From contig NZ_BLAV01000001.1 of NCBI RefSeq assembly GCF_009617875.1, positions 4,402,001-4,466,000 on the forward strand: 64,000 nt of DNA. The letters are read 5' to 3'. The stretch is from Prolixibacter sp. NT017. GTDB taxonomy: Bacteria; Bacteroidota; Bacteroidia; Bacteroidales; Prolixibacteraceae. Shown here one piece after another: positions 3,004 through 50,475 of the stretch (positions are counted from its first letter, which is position 1; each line of letters opens with the position of its first letter). The notes beneath the pieces were generated by a model, which was not told the DNA's origin, did no database searches, and saw nothing but the letters and a program-made list of their open reading frames with translations. A program made the translations under genes and the position numbers.

Positions 3004-4206
3004 ATGAACAGGTGTACGGGATTTGTAATAGCTGTGTTTTTTGTGATGGCAGTTGCTGCAACAGCGTCTGCCCAGTCTCTTTCCGATCTCAGGAAAAAGA
3101 GGCAAAAAACAGCCGATGAGATTAAGTATACCAACCAATTGCTGGAAGAGACCAGCAAACATGCCAAAAGTTCGCTTAACCGTTTGGCGCTGCTGAACAA
3201 GCAGATCAGGCTTCGGGCGCAACTGATTGGCGAAATCAACGGCGAAATTGCCTACCTCGACAGTTCTATTTCTGATAATGCTTTTGTCGTCAAAGGACTT
3301 ACTTCCGATTTAAAGAATATCCGTGCCAACTATGCCCAGATGATCCGGTATGCCCGTCGAAATGCTGACGCGAACAGCAAGCTTCTATTCTTGTTGTCGG
3401 CCGAGGATTTCAACCAGGCTTATAAAAGGTTTCTTTATTTAAGACAGTATGCCGATTACCGGAAAAAACAGGTGGAAGCCATTGTAGCTGTGAAAGACAT
3501 TCTTGACGCCAAATTGGCCGACCTGGAAAAGCGCCGTAAGGAAAAGGAAGTGATGCTGGAGCAGAAGCGGAATGAATCGCAGCAAATGAGAACCCAGAAG
3601 GTTCAGCAAAACCAGTATTACGCGAGTTTACAGAAAAAGCAGCGTGACCTGAAGAAAAAGCTGGAGCAACAACGGGAAGTAGAACAACGTCTTCAAAAAG
3701 AGATTGAGCGCATCATTGCCGAGGAGGCGAAGAAAAGTGCCGCTAAGAATAAAAAAGGCTTTAGCCTGACGCCTGCCGAAAAAGAATTGTCTGCCGATTT
3801 TGGCAAAAATAAAGGACGTTTCCCCTGGCCGGTTGATCGGGGCTTGATTACCGAAGAGTTTGGTGAACATCCGCATCCGGTGCTGAAACGTGTAATGGTC
3901 CGGAATAATGGTATCGATATTACGACCAGTGCAGGCGAAAAGGCGCGGACTATATTCAGGGGAACCGTTTCGCGGGTGGTGGCCATACCAGGCGGTAACA
4001 TGGCCGTAATAATCCGCCACGGAAATTACCTGACTGTTTATTCCAACCTGAGTGACGTGTTTGTTCGTGTAGGTCAAAAAGTGGAGACAAAACAGGAAAT
4101 AGGAAAAATATATACCGACCCGGGAGATAACAAAACCGTTCTGAAGTTCCAGATTTGGCATGAGAATAAAAAGCAAAATCCCGAGGATTGGATTGTGAAG
4201 AAGTAG
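3004..4206 (+). CDS. EnvC-like protein with degenerate LytM/M23 domain
   Basis: A 400-residue exported protein resembling EnvC, the periplasmic activator of cell-separation amidases. It has a signal peptide ending near ASA-Q, a long charged coiled coil from about residue 25 to 255 (many K/E/Q/R heptads), and a C-terminal LytM (peptidase M23) domain from about 290 to 395. Active M23 enzymes need a zinc site of HxxxD plus HxH. Here the first His is replaced (NNGIDI where HxGxDI is expected) and the second motif reads YSNL instead of YAHL, so zinc binding is probably lost. That fits an amidase activator rather than a hydrolase. It is the last gene of the operon with the TPR and DUF4292 lipoproteins. 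An A/T-rich hairpin follows at 4293-4332. Confidence 0.88.
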   Translation: MNRCTGFVIAVFFVMAVAATASAQSLSDLRKKRQKTADEIKYTNQLLEETSKHAKSSLNRLALLNKQIRLRAQLIGEINGEIAYLDSSISDNAFVVKGLTSDLKNIRANYAQMIRYARRNADANSKLLFLLSAEDFNQAYKRFLYLRQYADYRKKQVEAIVAVKDILDAKLADLEKRRKEKEVMLEQKRNESQQMRTQKVQQNQYYASLQKKQRDLKKKLEQQREVEQRLQKEIERIIAEEAKKSAAKNKKGFSLTPAEKELSADFGKNKGRFPWPVDRGLITEEFGEHPHPVLKRVMVRNNGIDITTSAGEKARTIFRGTVSRVVAIPGGNMAVIIRHGNYLTVYSNLSDVFVRVGQKVETKQEIGKIYTDPGDNKTVLKFQIWHENKKQNPEDWIVKK

Positions 4207-4292
4207 CCTGCCAAGCTGTGGCGAACAACCGGCAATGGCTGAATATCTGGCTTCATGAAAATAGATCCTGATCCAAAATTATTTTCACCGGG

Positions 4293-4332
4293 ATGTTTTT
4301 TTATTTCTGTCCCGATGGAAATAAAAAAACAT
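4293..4332. terminator. A/T-rich perfect hairpin between convergent genes
   Basis: A perfect 15-bp inverted repeat (4293-4307 with 4318-4332) with a 10-nt loop. The stem contains seven consecutive T and A pairs, so each strand ends in a T-rich arm. It lies between the EnvC-like gene ending at 4206 and the minus-strand Crp/Fnr gene ending at 4481, so it could stop transcription from both sides. The remainder of 4207-4480 shows no convincing gene: a 103-codon frame at 4255-4566 contains this hairpin, overlaps the Crp gene antisense and looks spurious. Confidence 0.55.
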
Positions 4333-4480
4333 AGCAATCGAATTTCAATTACATCCGGACATGTTTATTCACATCCTGACCTTACATTAAAAAAGATCGG
4401 TAAAAGGTTGGAAAACACAGGCGAAACAGGGTTTCAACTCTTTCAGGTTGCCGGCATCCTCCGTTGGCTTACGGTGGGTT

Positions 4481-47095: not shown

Positions 47096-48109
47096 CTACC
47101 GGGCGGTAGTGGCTTCGGTATGAATAGCCTGAAGAAGGGATGTGGCGGCTCCCGGTGCAACATCCTGCGTTAGTTCCCACGCCATAATTCCTGCATAGCT
47201 TTTGTCGATAAGATAGCGGGTCTTCAGTGCCAGCAAATCAGGGCCATTGTATGAGTAGTCGCCGGCCTTGTTCATGTTCACGCCGGGCTGATACCGGGCA
47301 ACAATTTGGCGGTAGGTGAGTGCCGATGGCTCATCGGTGGAGGCTCCGGGCACCCGTCGTCCGTAAAACGGCACACCGCCTATGAGTTTCGATTTGGGAA
47401 CACCTGCTTCGCTGAATGTTGTGAGTGCATCGACAAATTGATTGGCAGTGGCCTGGTTGCCGCTGTTGTCAAACGAGTCGTAAATCATCAGGTTGAGGAA
47501 ATCGGCGTAATTGGCTATCGCGACGGAGCGCTGTACATTGTAAGTAGTTGCCGCCACCGAGAACATCAGCTTCTGATTGTGCAGGGATGCTGACAGATCC
47601 GAGCAGAGTGCTTCGTAGTCCTGCTGTGGAATCGATTGAGGGTAGTCTTCCCAGTCGAGGTCCACTCCGGCGAGCTTTTCGCTTACGCAGAAGTTGGTGA
47701 TATCGGCTACATACTGCGCTCTTTTTTCGGCGGAAGCCGCCATCGGGAAAATGGTTTCTGATTCGTACCAACCGCCCAGCACCAGGAAGAGCTCGATATG
47801 CTGACTGCCAATGGCCGATTTGACCTCACGGATGTGCGCTGTCATTTCCGGAGAAATGGTGAAGCTGCCTGATTGGTCGGGTGCTACCGAGAAGAAATAG
47901 ACGCGTGACAGTAAATTCAGTGCGTCGAAATCGAAGCTGCTGAAGCTGTAATCGGGCAAATAGCCGGCGATGATGATCGGGCTTTCAACGGTTGTGGGTT
48001 GAGGTGGTGTTACCGGGCTGTCGTCCTTTTGGCACGAAGCAAGGATAAACATCAGCGGAAGCATCGAAACCAGCCACTTCAGTTGAAATCGGAACAGGTT
48101 GTTTTTCAT
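47096..48109 (-). CDS. GH18 family lipoprotein (chitinase/endoglycosidase-like)
   Basis: A 337-residue lipoprotein (lipobox FILASC) with one glycoside hydrolase family 18 TIM barrel. The catalytic motif DxxDxDxE reads AGVDLDWE: the first Asp is Ala but the final D-x-E pair with the acid Glu is intact. SxGG-like LVLGGWYES and the barrel strands FSVAATTYN, LNLMIYDSF, GGVPFYGR and AGIMAWELTQD are typical. It could act on chitin oligomers or N-glycans at the cell surface. It is short, with no extra binding domain. The 5' side faces the 21-bp minisatellite. Confidence 0.9.
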   Translation of the reverse strand: MKNNLFRFQLKWLVSMLPLMFILASCQKDDSPVTPPQPTTVESPIIIAGYLPDYSFSSFDFDALNLLSRVYFFSVAPDQSGSFTISPEMTAHIREVKSAIGSQHIELFLVLGGWYESETIFPMAASAEKRAQYVADITNFCVSEKLAGVDLDWEDYPQSIPQQDYEALCSDLSASLHNQKLMFSVAATTYNVQRSVAIANYADFLNLMIYDSFDNSGNQATANQFVDALTTFSEAGVPKSKLIGGVPFYGRRVPGASTDEPSALTYRQIVARYQPGVNMNKAGDYSYNGPDLLALKTRYLIDKSYAGIMAWELTQDVAPGAATSLLQAIHTEATTAR

Positions 48110-48283
48110 TTATTGGTCAGGTATATGCCTGGAAAAGCATGGTACGGTGCCGAAGATAGTCATCTGCGGCATGACTGGCAAAACTTTTCAAATGTGGAAA
48201 GAGTCAGAAAGAAGGCAGGGCTTAACGACGGAGCCGGGTGGTCGTACCGGACAGATCAGATTGGCTGAAACAACCGGTTTTAC

Positions 48284-48890
48284 TGGTTGGAACAACTCCG
48301 TTCGTCGTTGGAAGATGTCAGCGGTTGGTTGGAACTACTCCGCTACCCGTTGGAACTACTGCGACAGGTGTTGGAACTACTCCGTCATGCATTGGACGAA
48401 GTCAGCGGGTCGTTGGAACTACTAATGCAGCCGTTGGAACCACTTTCCGGTAGGTTGGACGAACCCGGAGAGGTGTTGGAAGTACTTCCCCGGTCGTTGG
48501 AATTACTCCGGCATGCGTTGGAGGAACCTAGCGGTCAGTTGGAACTACTCCGGCATGCATTGGGCGAACAGGAAGGCGAGCGGAAACCACATGCCGGGTA
48601 ACGGAAACATGTACCGACGAAGCGGAACGTACTCCGGGCCTAACGGAAAATACTTGCTAACTGCCGGAAAGTCAGTTTCTGCTGCCGGAATAGCAGTCGC
48701 GGACAGCGGAAACATCTCCGGTGGTAACAGAAACTATCCGGGGCACAGCGGAATGATGATCACGAGCGGCGGAAACATGATGGCCGGCACCGGAATGAAC
48801 AAGACGGTGGGCGGAAACGACTCGGCGATTGGAGGAATGAATTGGAAGGTCAACGGAACGGACTACTGGTACGACGGAATATCGTTAAAC
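48284..48890. repeat. 29-copy 21-bp minisatellite
   Basis: A GG core recurs at every 21st base from 48289 to 48876 with one single-base deletion (interval 48562 to 48582). The first 14 copies share GTTGGAACTACTCCG, and the next 15 share (G/C)CGGAA(A/T), so the array has two families joined at the deletion. Copies are degenerate outside the core. One copy (48729) has lost the first G of the core. Overlapping open frames read through it with 7-residue periodicity: 48287-48601 (LELLRxx heptads) and 48513-48926 (SGGNMMAG-like). Whether any is translated is unknown. 48110-48283 holds no gene I can support. Confidence 0.9.
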
Positions 48891-48993
48891 GGGAGCATAA
48901 TCATGGATCGTGGTCAAAATTTCTAACCCGGGGAACTCCCTGTTGGGTCAATTTCATCCCAAACGGGTATGATTTGCGTTGCTTCGTGTTATT

Positions 48994-49053: not shown

Positions 49054-49076
49054 ATTGACCAGAATAATGTTATTTT

Positions 49077-49094
49077 TATACCCGAACAGGTATA
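49077..49094. promoter_or_regulatory. HipB operator O3
   Basis: Identical to O2, again centred 41 bp further on, ending 2 bp before the hipB start codon. Confidence 0.75.
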
Positions 49095-49096
49095 TT

Positions 49097-49327
49097 ATGG
49101 ATAGTAAGAAGGTACATCAGTTTGTTAAAGAGAAACGAAAGGCTTTGGGTTTAACCCAGGAAGAACTTTCGTTTAAAGCCGGCGTCGGACTGCGGTTTAT
49201 CCGTGAGATCGAGCAGGGCAAACCAACTTTGCAAATGAACAAAGTAAATCAGGTGCTTAAACTTTTCGGGTACGAACTGGGCCCGGTTCCTGTCGACAGA
49301 AATGATTTGACCCATGAAGGAAGCTAA
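49097..49327 (+). CDS. hipB: HipB-like XRE-family antitoxin/repressor
   Basis: A 76-residue XRE-family protein: LTQEELSFKAGVGLRFIREIEQGKPTLQMNKVNQVLKLFG is the HTH, seen as LTQEELSFKAGVGLRFIREI and GKPTLQMNKVN, ending in the HipB-like GYELGPVP. I chose ATG 49097 rather than an upstream in-frame codon at 49055 because the latter would place the operator O3 inside the gene and add unrelated residues. Three operators precede it. In complete modules HipA, a kinase toxin, is encoded immediately downstream with overlap; here only a 33-codon hipA remnant follows. It is thus an orphan antitoxin or a surviving repressor. Confidence 0.88.
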   Translation: MDSKKVHQFVKEKRKALGLTQEELSFKAGVGLRFIREIEQGKPTLQMNKVNQVLKLFGYELGPVPVDRNDLTHEGS

Positions 49328-49415
49328 CGTTTATATGCACAATCAGTGTCAGGAGCTGGTATGGACTCCCGGGGTATTTCCCCTCTTCCTCATGAAAGTC
49401 CGGCGATTATGCTGA
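49314..49415 (+). pseudogene. hipA remnant
   Basis: The frame starting at ATG 49314, overlapping hipB by 14 bp as in intact hipBA operons, reads MKEANVYMHNQ and then QELVWTPG, like the N-terminal strand of HipA-type proteins (xAxVYxNxxxAGxLxWT). It is stopped at 49413-49415 after 33 codons, with no further HipA sequence before pheS, whose promoter lies at 49424. The toxin gene was evidently removed except for its first codons. Confidence 0.7.
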
Positions 49416-49455: not shown

Positions 49456-50475
49456 ATGCTAGATAAGATCGAACAACTGAAGAAAGAGATTGAAGCCGTG
49501 GCGGCTCAATCGGCTGAGGAAGTAGAACAATTGCGTATTAAATACCTCAGCAAAAAAGGAGAGGTTTCAAAACTTTTTGCTGAATTCCGGGATGTTCCGG
49601 CTGAGCAAAAACGCGAAGTTGGACAGGCCATTAATACCCTCAGGGATTTTGCCCAGGAGCGTTTGGACGTGTTGCGCAGCGGTTTGCAGGAGCAGAAGGA
49701 TAGTGTAGCCGGTATCGATTTTACCCTTCCGGGAGAATCGATGAAACTGGGTACCCGTCACCCGCTTTCCATCGTACGGAATGAGATTCTCGATATCTTC
49801 AAGCGGTTGGGTTTCGTGGTAACGGAAGGACCGGAAATTGAAGATGACTGGCATGTTTTCTCGGCGTTGAACTTTCCGGAAGAACACCCGGCCCGCGATA
49901 TGCAGGATACATTCTTTATTCAGCGTAATCCGGATATTTTGCTGCGTACGCATACTTCTTCGGTGCAGGTGCACGACATGGAAGAGATGGAGCCACCGAT
50001 TCGTACGGTCACTCCGGGGCGCGTTTTCCGGAACGAAGCCATTTCGGCCCGGGCACATTGTATGTTCCACCAGATTGAGGGATTGTATATCGATGAGAAT
50101 GTTTCGTTTGCCGACCTGAAACAGACCCTGCTTTACTTTGCACAGGAACTTTTCGGCGAGGAAACAAAAATCCGGATGCGTCCGTCGTACTTCCCGTTCA
50201 CCGAGCCGTCGGCTGAGATGGATGTTTCGTGCTCTATTTGTGGCGGCGAAGGATGTAACGTTTGTAAGCACACCGGCTGGCTGGAAATTCTCGGTTGCGG
50301 TATGGTCGATCCCAATGTATTGGAATCATCGGGCATTGATAGCAACAAGTACACCGGTTTTGCCTTCGGAATGGGAATCGAGCGCATCGCCATGTTGAAA
50401 TACGGTATCAACGACTTGCGCCTCTATTTCGAGAATGACGTGCGCTTCCTGAATCAATTCAAATCAGCTCACTAA
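49456..50475 (+). CDS. pheS: Phenylalanyl-tRNA synthetase alpha subunit
   Basis: A 339-residue alpha subunit of the alpha2beta2 class II enzyme that charges tRNA-Phe. The N-terminal coiled coil (about 1-85; DKIEQLKKEIEAVAAQSAEEVE) grips tRNA; the catalytic part has motif 2 (PGRVFRNEAISARAHCMFHQIEG, seen as GRVFRNEAISARAHCMFHQ), the FPFTEPSAEMDVSC segment, and motif 3 (GFAFGMGIERIAMLKYGI). ATG 49456 is the start because the upstream TTG lies in the promoter. The beta subunit gene is not adjacent. A strong terminator follows. Confidence 0.97.
   Translation: MLDKIEQLKKEIEAVAAQSAEEVEQLRIKYLSKKGEVSKLFAEFRDVPAEQKREVGQAINTLRDFAQERLDVLRSGLQEQKDSVAGIDFTLPGESMKLGTRHPLSIVRNEILDIFKRLGFVVTEGPEIEDDWHVFSALNFPEEHPARDMQDTFFIQRNPDILLRTHTSSVQVHDMEEMEPPIRTVTPGRVFRNEAISARAHCMFHQIEGLYIDENVSFADLKQTLLYFAQELFGEETKIRMRPSYFPFTEPSAEMDVSCSICGGEGCNVCKHTGWLEILGCGMVDPNVLESSGIDSNKYTGFAFGMGIERIAMLKYGINDLRLYFENDVRFLNQFKSAH

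Follow-up and report, generated by a model that had tools for sequence, protein, structure and literature searches.

Intergenic minisatellites of Prolixibacter and its order keep a 21-bp step over unrelated unit sequences

Minisatellites of bacteria are usually put down to slippage or treated as families of one repeat. Some better-known repeats have a comparable layout: the iterons of plasmid replication origins are direct repeats spaced near two helical turns, and CRISPR arrays are tandem arrays with conserved and variable parts. Porphyromonas gingivalis is a member of the same order as Prolixibacter. In the excerpts of its published description that we draw on, P. gingivalis carries the minisatellite-MITEs BrickBuilt (23-nt) and PgRS/464 (41-nt), as well as 22-nt repeats (PMC4596501). 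REP/BIME elements are dispersed repeats that serve as targets of insertion sequences (IS), again according to excerpts of the source (PMC1525189). Among open-licence papers, our literature search found none that joins Prolixibacter with tandem repeats and none that names a common 21-bp step.

We analysed a 64,000-nucleotide stretch of the Prolixibacter sp. NT017 genome, here called the window (C1:4402001-4466000; the genome is a single contig of 5.14 Mb). The window contains a tandem array in the gene order GH18, array, HipB-like gene, pheS. In window positions, the features of the locus are as follows.

47096-48109, minus strand: GH18 gene (PF00704) flanking the array, assigned by Pfam; a lipoprotein by eye
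48110-48283, plus strand: intergenic stretch ahead of the array, conserved in P. bellariivorans and P. denitrificans
48284-48576, plus strand: half A of the array, 14 units of the GTTGGAAC type at 21-bp steps
48577-48896, plus strand: half B of the array, 15 units of the CGGAA type at 21-bp steps
49055-49327, plus strand: HipB-like HTH_3 protein (PF01381, by Pfam), remnant of a hipBA module; none in P. denitrificans
49314-49345, plus strand: remaining first codons of hipA, the rest deleted, recognised by eye against L049 of P. bellariivorans
49456-50475, plus strand: pheS (PF01409, PF02912, by Pfam), the conserved gene past a variable slot

The window array (48284-48896) has 29 units, separated by 27 steps of 21 bp and one of 20 bp. 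Its GG cores lie at 48289 + 21k in half A (k = 0-13, the last at 48562) and at 48582 + 21k in half B (k = 0-14, the last at 48876), with AG instead of GG at one core (48729). Recomputed from these positions and from the autocorrelation (0.49-0.53 at lags 21, 42, 63, 84, 105 and 126; mean 0.26 over lags 1-130), the copy number and spacing agree with an earlier note on this DNA. The strong divergence between cores that it described is equally evident, with a mean pairwise unit identity of 0.58 in half A and 0.47 in half B. Tandem Repeats Finder returned only overlapping pieces of the array.

The two halves represent two unit families. Across three species, the consensus is ..GTTGGAAc.ACTccg for 81 A units and ..AgCGGAAa..acttc for 51 B units. 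The single 20-bp step (48562 to 48582) marks the entry to half B. The earlier note had the two families, which are real, meet at a 1-bp deletion. The ACT part lies one base later relative to GGAA in B than in A units, so that the ACT-part lattice continues through the 20-bp step. A more likely reading of this step is that the GGAA core has shifted by one base.

The array is shared by other members of the genus. It lies at the same place in P. bellariivorans (G001) and P. denitrificans (G002), beginning with the same first units and between the same genes, GH18 and pheS. This makes an assembly artefact very unlikely. The first seven units differ from those of P. denitrificans by 2 substitutions in 157 aligned bases and from those of P. 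bellariivorans, which has lost one 21-bp unit among them, by 2 in 136. Identity of the four upstream flank blocks is 93-96% and 83-97%, respectively. No two of the three species have the same distal half, and both orthologues also have a 20-bp step near the A/B junction, at other units. Recent expansion, one of the two explanations suggested earlier for the regular spacing, is not supported, given the seven first units common to two other species and the strong divergence of the units.

The slot distal to the array varies in content. In P. bellariivorans it holds a 490-amino-acid ORF without a Pfam match, hipB and both HipA domains (HipB with the N- and C-terminal domains of HipA at L049:6610-8175); in the source genome it holds a hipB remnant, and in P. 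denitrificans it is empty. The label “orphan HipB” was apt for the window gene, a PF01381 helix-turn-helix protein next to which only the first codons of hipA remain. The suggestion of a recombination hot spot is supported in part: the distal half turns over, the gene slot beyond it varies, and arrays are sites of IS insertion.

We find that the window array is best read as an intergenic minisatellite akin to BrickBuilt and PgRS. Gene context and frame tests indicate an untranslated, imperfect, intergenic tandem repeat, and the unit lost in P. bellariivorans is a whole-unit change. As far as the excerpts of PMC4596501 go, the P. gingivalis elements are likewise intergenic and noncoding, with imperfect tandem units that lack spacers; they have step classes of 22-23 and 41 nt, occur in several copies per genome, and gain or lose whole units, there between strains. 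According to the same excerpts, each of those element families has one unit sequence, and leaders, tails and inverted ends are present, whereas Prolixibacter arrays have mostly unrelated units at the same step. No single unit sequence is dispersed through the Prolixibacter genome, since a few loci are alike and most arrays are not. The two systems also differ in that a Prolixibacter array is interrupted by an IS3-like element.

The other systems are less similar in kind. REP/BIME elements, in the excerpted account, are also repeats scattered between genes and favoured by particular insertion sequences, but REPs are short palindromes of one family, while the Prolixibacter repeats are direct, of fixed step and varied in sequence (PMC1525189). 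The window units themselves are direct repeats with no general complementary covariation. Like iterons, they stand near two-helical-turn spacing; unlike iterons, such arrays occur at many chromosomal loci with unrelated units, and no initiator gene was found among the window-array neighbours examined. The tandem layout with conserved and variable parts recalls CRISPR, but here the unit is 21 bp in whole, with repeat and spacer not separate, and the window array had no match in phage and plasmid collections at blastn sensitivity.

The window array is one of many in the source genome. A DNA search with the window array as query detected two more loci. The window array, A2974 and A4894 have units in common, while most other arrays have unrelated units. 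GGAA at 21-bp steps (≤3 mismatches) gave 142 matches in the source genome versus 21 for the reversed pattern; among the GGAA matches listed are at least 14 places, including the window, with several unit families and a few longer-period arrays. GC skew identifies the GGAA strand as the leading one at 11 of the 14 array places listed; the sign of the skew switches just ahead of the window and near 2.0 Mb.

An unbiased scan for periods 12-63 covered 40 evenly spaced 20-kb samples plus the window (864 kb). It detected 35 arrays, and none when the sequence was shuffled in 3-base blocks, which excludes chance as the source of the periodicity. Among the 29 arrays classed as noncoding, 25 have periods of 21 (13), 22 (2), 23 (2), 41 (5) or 42 (3) bp. 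This tally counts the halves of one IS-split array (12914 and 14638) separately, and includes the window array itself (4450250), an array within a 156-amino-acid ORF (4243070), one assigned period 21 by a halving rule after an earlier best score at 42 (2840245), and two that the scan put in ORFs judged spurious (1174543 and 4893780). Outside it are four noncoding rows, whose periods are 12, 16, 50 and 52 (a tRNA cluster in the case of 52), and six rows inside ORFs. Together, the 25 arrays span about 10 kb. Arrays make up 1.2% of the DNA sampled, and of its long intergenic regions about a fifth. Scaled up from 25 per 864 kb, the whole source genome is estimated to hold about 150 arrays.

Most arrays lie between genes. 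Of 28 rows with periods 20-23 or 41-43, 23 are intergenic, four lie in ORFs and one lies at a sample edge. The genes flanking the 23 intergenic arrays are tandem in 14 cases, divergent in five and convergent in four, close to the background of 60, 38 and 23. We considered whether 41 and 42 bp are doubled 21-bp units, but a half period of 20-22 is absent from all eight such arrays (the cut at 1558140 was badly placed, with little period), and they are not evident dimers.

Some arrays have features of their own. The two CTGGAA arrays (A3200 and A3944; L038:3680-4039 and L039 near 3990-4348) also have a leader in common (209 bp at 73%), the only such pair; nothing else hints at a dispersed element that carries a flank of its own. 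In P. bellariivorans, a 21-bp array at L206:1707-2190 has TCAGGACA units followed by TGTCCTGA units, the second part being the inverted complement of the first. The 22-23-bp arrays at L072:1302733-1303020 and in L083 at C1:4131262-4131518 contain palindromes that, by eye, differ between units (GGTAGTTAGTACTACC, GATCCTTATAAGGATC).

A step of 21 bp is preferred across the family and the order. We searched with two cores only, GGAA and AAGG, and the counts still include 7-bp microrepeats (G044, G164) and coding-looking matches (G126, G192). Five exact GGAA cores occur at 21 bp in 29 of 140 family genomes, at 20 bp in 5, at 22 in 1 and at 24 in 5, and 21-bp GGAA arrays cover 10 of the family's 23 genera. 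The reversed core AAGG occurs at 21 bp in 22 of the 140 genomes, at 20 in none, at 22 in 3 and at 24 in 8 (hand count); this control is a second core with the same step preference, not a blank. In 178 genomes of the order, arrays were found at 21 bp in 32 and at 22 bp in 8 with GGAA, and at 21 bp in 28 and at 22 bp in 4 with AAGG (hand count).

In genomes dense with arrays the counts fall on one side: 142 GGAA matches at 21 bp against none at 22 in G278, and 91 against none in G249. Two genomes of one genus, G220 and G305, go the other way, with 10 and 40 GGAA matches at a step of 22 bp but no match at 21; their 22-bp arrays include palindromic units such as GGAACTTTTTAGTTCC. The array step looks like a property of the lineage. 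Together with the 864-kb scan, the family and order tests carry the conserved spacing far past the window locus, and the earlier observation on the window array is thus both right and understated.

Scans of other genomes gave more mixed periods. In 400 kb of two sister drafts, the noncoding periods are 21, 41 and 41, plus a tRNA pair, a density below that of the source genome. About 970 kb drawn from E. coli and ten further genomes of the order yielded 13 noncoding rows, five of which have period 20-21, including two in G003, of the same genus as the source; the remaining rows have periods 12-35, and one is a tRNA cluster. A true 21-bp array with the GTTGGAAC core lies beyond Prolixibacter, in a Breznakibacter MAG (L185:4753-5225), where the search pattern had selected for the core. 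Two further candidates from beyond the genus, L183 and L184, fall in genes and are probably there by chance.

Constraint appears to act on spacing rather than on sequence. Three P. denitrificans arrays are 93-96% identical to their counterparts, and their flanks 82-100%. As the arrays tested change between species about as fast as their flanks, constraint on array sequence is weak. Along minimum spanning trees, 211 units from 17 arrays have accumulated 1109 substitutions. In the flanks, four P. denitrificans comparisons (coding DNA included) show 11 indels (≤15 bp) per about 331 substitutions. For 11 arrays with 813 unit substitutions, about 27 off-lattice indels are expected and 5 were seen, a deficit that favours constraint on spacing, although the arrays were defined by the lattice and the units cut on it, which biases the test. 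Aligned arrays in the P. denitrificans comparisons have no indels where about 1.2 are expected, which is little informative. In P. bellariivorans (G001), A4507 aligns ambiguously, with gaps of 30, 12 and 64, none a clean multiple of 21.

The best explanation is that the window array is a noncoding intergenic minisatellite, and that arrays of this kind, fixed in step but not in sequence, occur across the order. Exact 21-bp spacing extends over unrelated unit sequences and many genomes. We give a probability of about 0.5 to the reading that the arrays are DNA-level elements with constrained spacing, whose function we infer. The array would act as double-stranded DNA. Because 21 bp is two helical turns and 41-42 bp about four, equivalent positions of all units would face the same side. 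A likely use would be as a phased platform, on which recombination machinery or a DNA-binding protein tolerant of sequence would assemble. The protein-binding array that the earlier note listed, with its core on one helical face, would be compatible with the data. Units would be copied and lost in register, with off-register units either not made or selected against. The preference for 21 bp with both cores in the family and the order, the 25 of 29 noncoding periods, the missing half period in 41- and 42-bp arrays, and the indel deficit all argue for constraint on spacing. Against it stand the flank-like divergence of arrays, the A4507 gaps, the mixed periods elsewhere, and the lower density in sister drafts. 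Four of the 25 arrays, at 22-23 bp, are also off the two-turn ideal, and some pattern matches are microrepeats or coding-looking.

The main rival is that these are neutral minisatellites, formed by slippage or unequal recombination and of no use to the cell, with the 21-bp step reflecting nothing more than biased copying by the replication or repair enzymes of the lineage. Similar divergence of arrays and flanks in the three P. denitrificans comparisons is consistent with this, as are unit sequences that are unrelated from array to array, turnover by units at the window locus, and array density that varies widely among relatives. A bias in how arrays are made would, however, leave unexplained why old and strongly diverged arrays keep their step with few 1-bp indels, an argument with some bias of its own, as the units were cut on the lattice. 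We regard neutrality as somewhat unlikely. A very improbable reading is that the array encodes a heptad-repeat protein. Seven codons make 21 bp, a leucine-heptad (LE) frame (48287-48601) is open over half A in three species and mostly open in A2974, and half B has one frame open across 15 units. Yet in six frames of 17 arrays the stops match column shuffles and are not significantly below them (lowest P 0.07 of 102 tests), the open frame differs from array to array, and A4894 has several stops in the LE frame. Three ORFs over arrays matched no Pfam family, and one frame cannot be kept in the arrays of period 22, 23 and 41 that exist. The variable coding repeat that the earlier note had listed is thus not borne out.

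A transcribed array, in which each unit would be recognised by an RNA-binding protein or adopt a small fold, is highly unlikely too. The GGA-rich cores do lie on one strand, the leading one at most places listed, but there is no Rfam match at the gathering threshold. Within units, A shows no complementary covariation and B a weak signal (columns 3/13, z 3.4; columns 2/14, z 2.5), and 23 of 24 fold z-scores, from 12 of the 17 arrays, fall between -2.5 and +2.3, the exception being one strand of A780 (-6.3). At the DNA level, we rejected intrinsic bending as a common property. In a dinucleotide wedge model, the curvature of 3 of 17 arrays equals or exceeds that of 99% of the intergenic controls (up to 135), no curvature is shared, and half A of the window array is predicted to lie under the control median.

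Constrained spacing at the DNA level might have a more specific basis, which we put forward tentatively and consider rather doubtful. The step could be a lineage-specific constant imposed in trans, with a cellular machine as the ruler at many intergenic loci of any sequence. This ruler may be an array-copying enzyme, or a DNA-binding filament with a two-turn pitch. Of the genomes of the order that were searched and bear arrays, most would have a ruler of 21 bp; at least one genus, that of G220 and G305, would have one of 22, and P. gingivalis would measure 22-23 and 41. If this is true, the arrays would make up a new class of chromosomal element, which spacing rather than sequence would define. 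Spacing is what arrays of unrelated sequence have in common, within a genome and across the order. What measures 21 bp becomes a testable question, one that matters for chromosome organisation, array-making enzymes and the targeting of IS in Bacteroidota.

Arrays are associated with an IS3-like element. A leader that seemed common to arrays proved to be this element, which encodes OrfB with an rve domain (PF00665); its family was assigned by eye. The copies in the source genome are as follows.

L067:13085-14683, and C1 near 748810, 1700386, 1760399 and 5133506: IS3-like copies

Every one of the five right ends (≥99% identity) in the source genome sits at an array or no further than about 25 bp from one, and four array contexts are represented, although the right flank at 5133k has an autocorrelation of only 0.41 at lag 21, yet the same units as 748k. 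Of four left ends, two adjoin array sequence, identical in both, and two (1760k and 748k) do not. The copy at 14 kb splits a 21-bp array, with the same array on both sides and, by eye, a 3-bp duplication inside a unit. An IS3-like relic at 1567k has no array, and the ends at 2537k and in G003 (ambiguous) are not tallied as at arrays. In P. denitrificans, two IS3-like ends lie at arrays too, one of period 42. The copies at 14, 748 and 5133 kb have exchanged flanks, which makes recombination between them likely.
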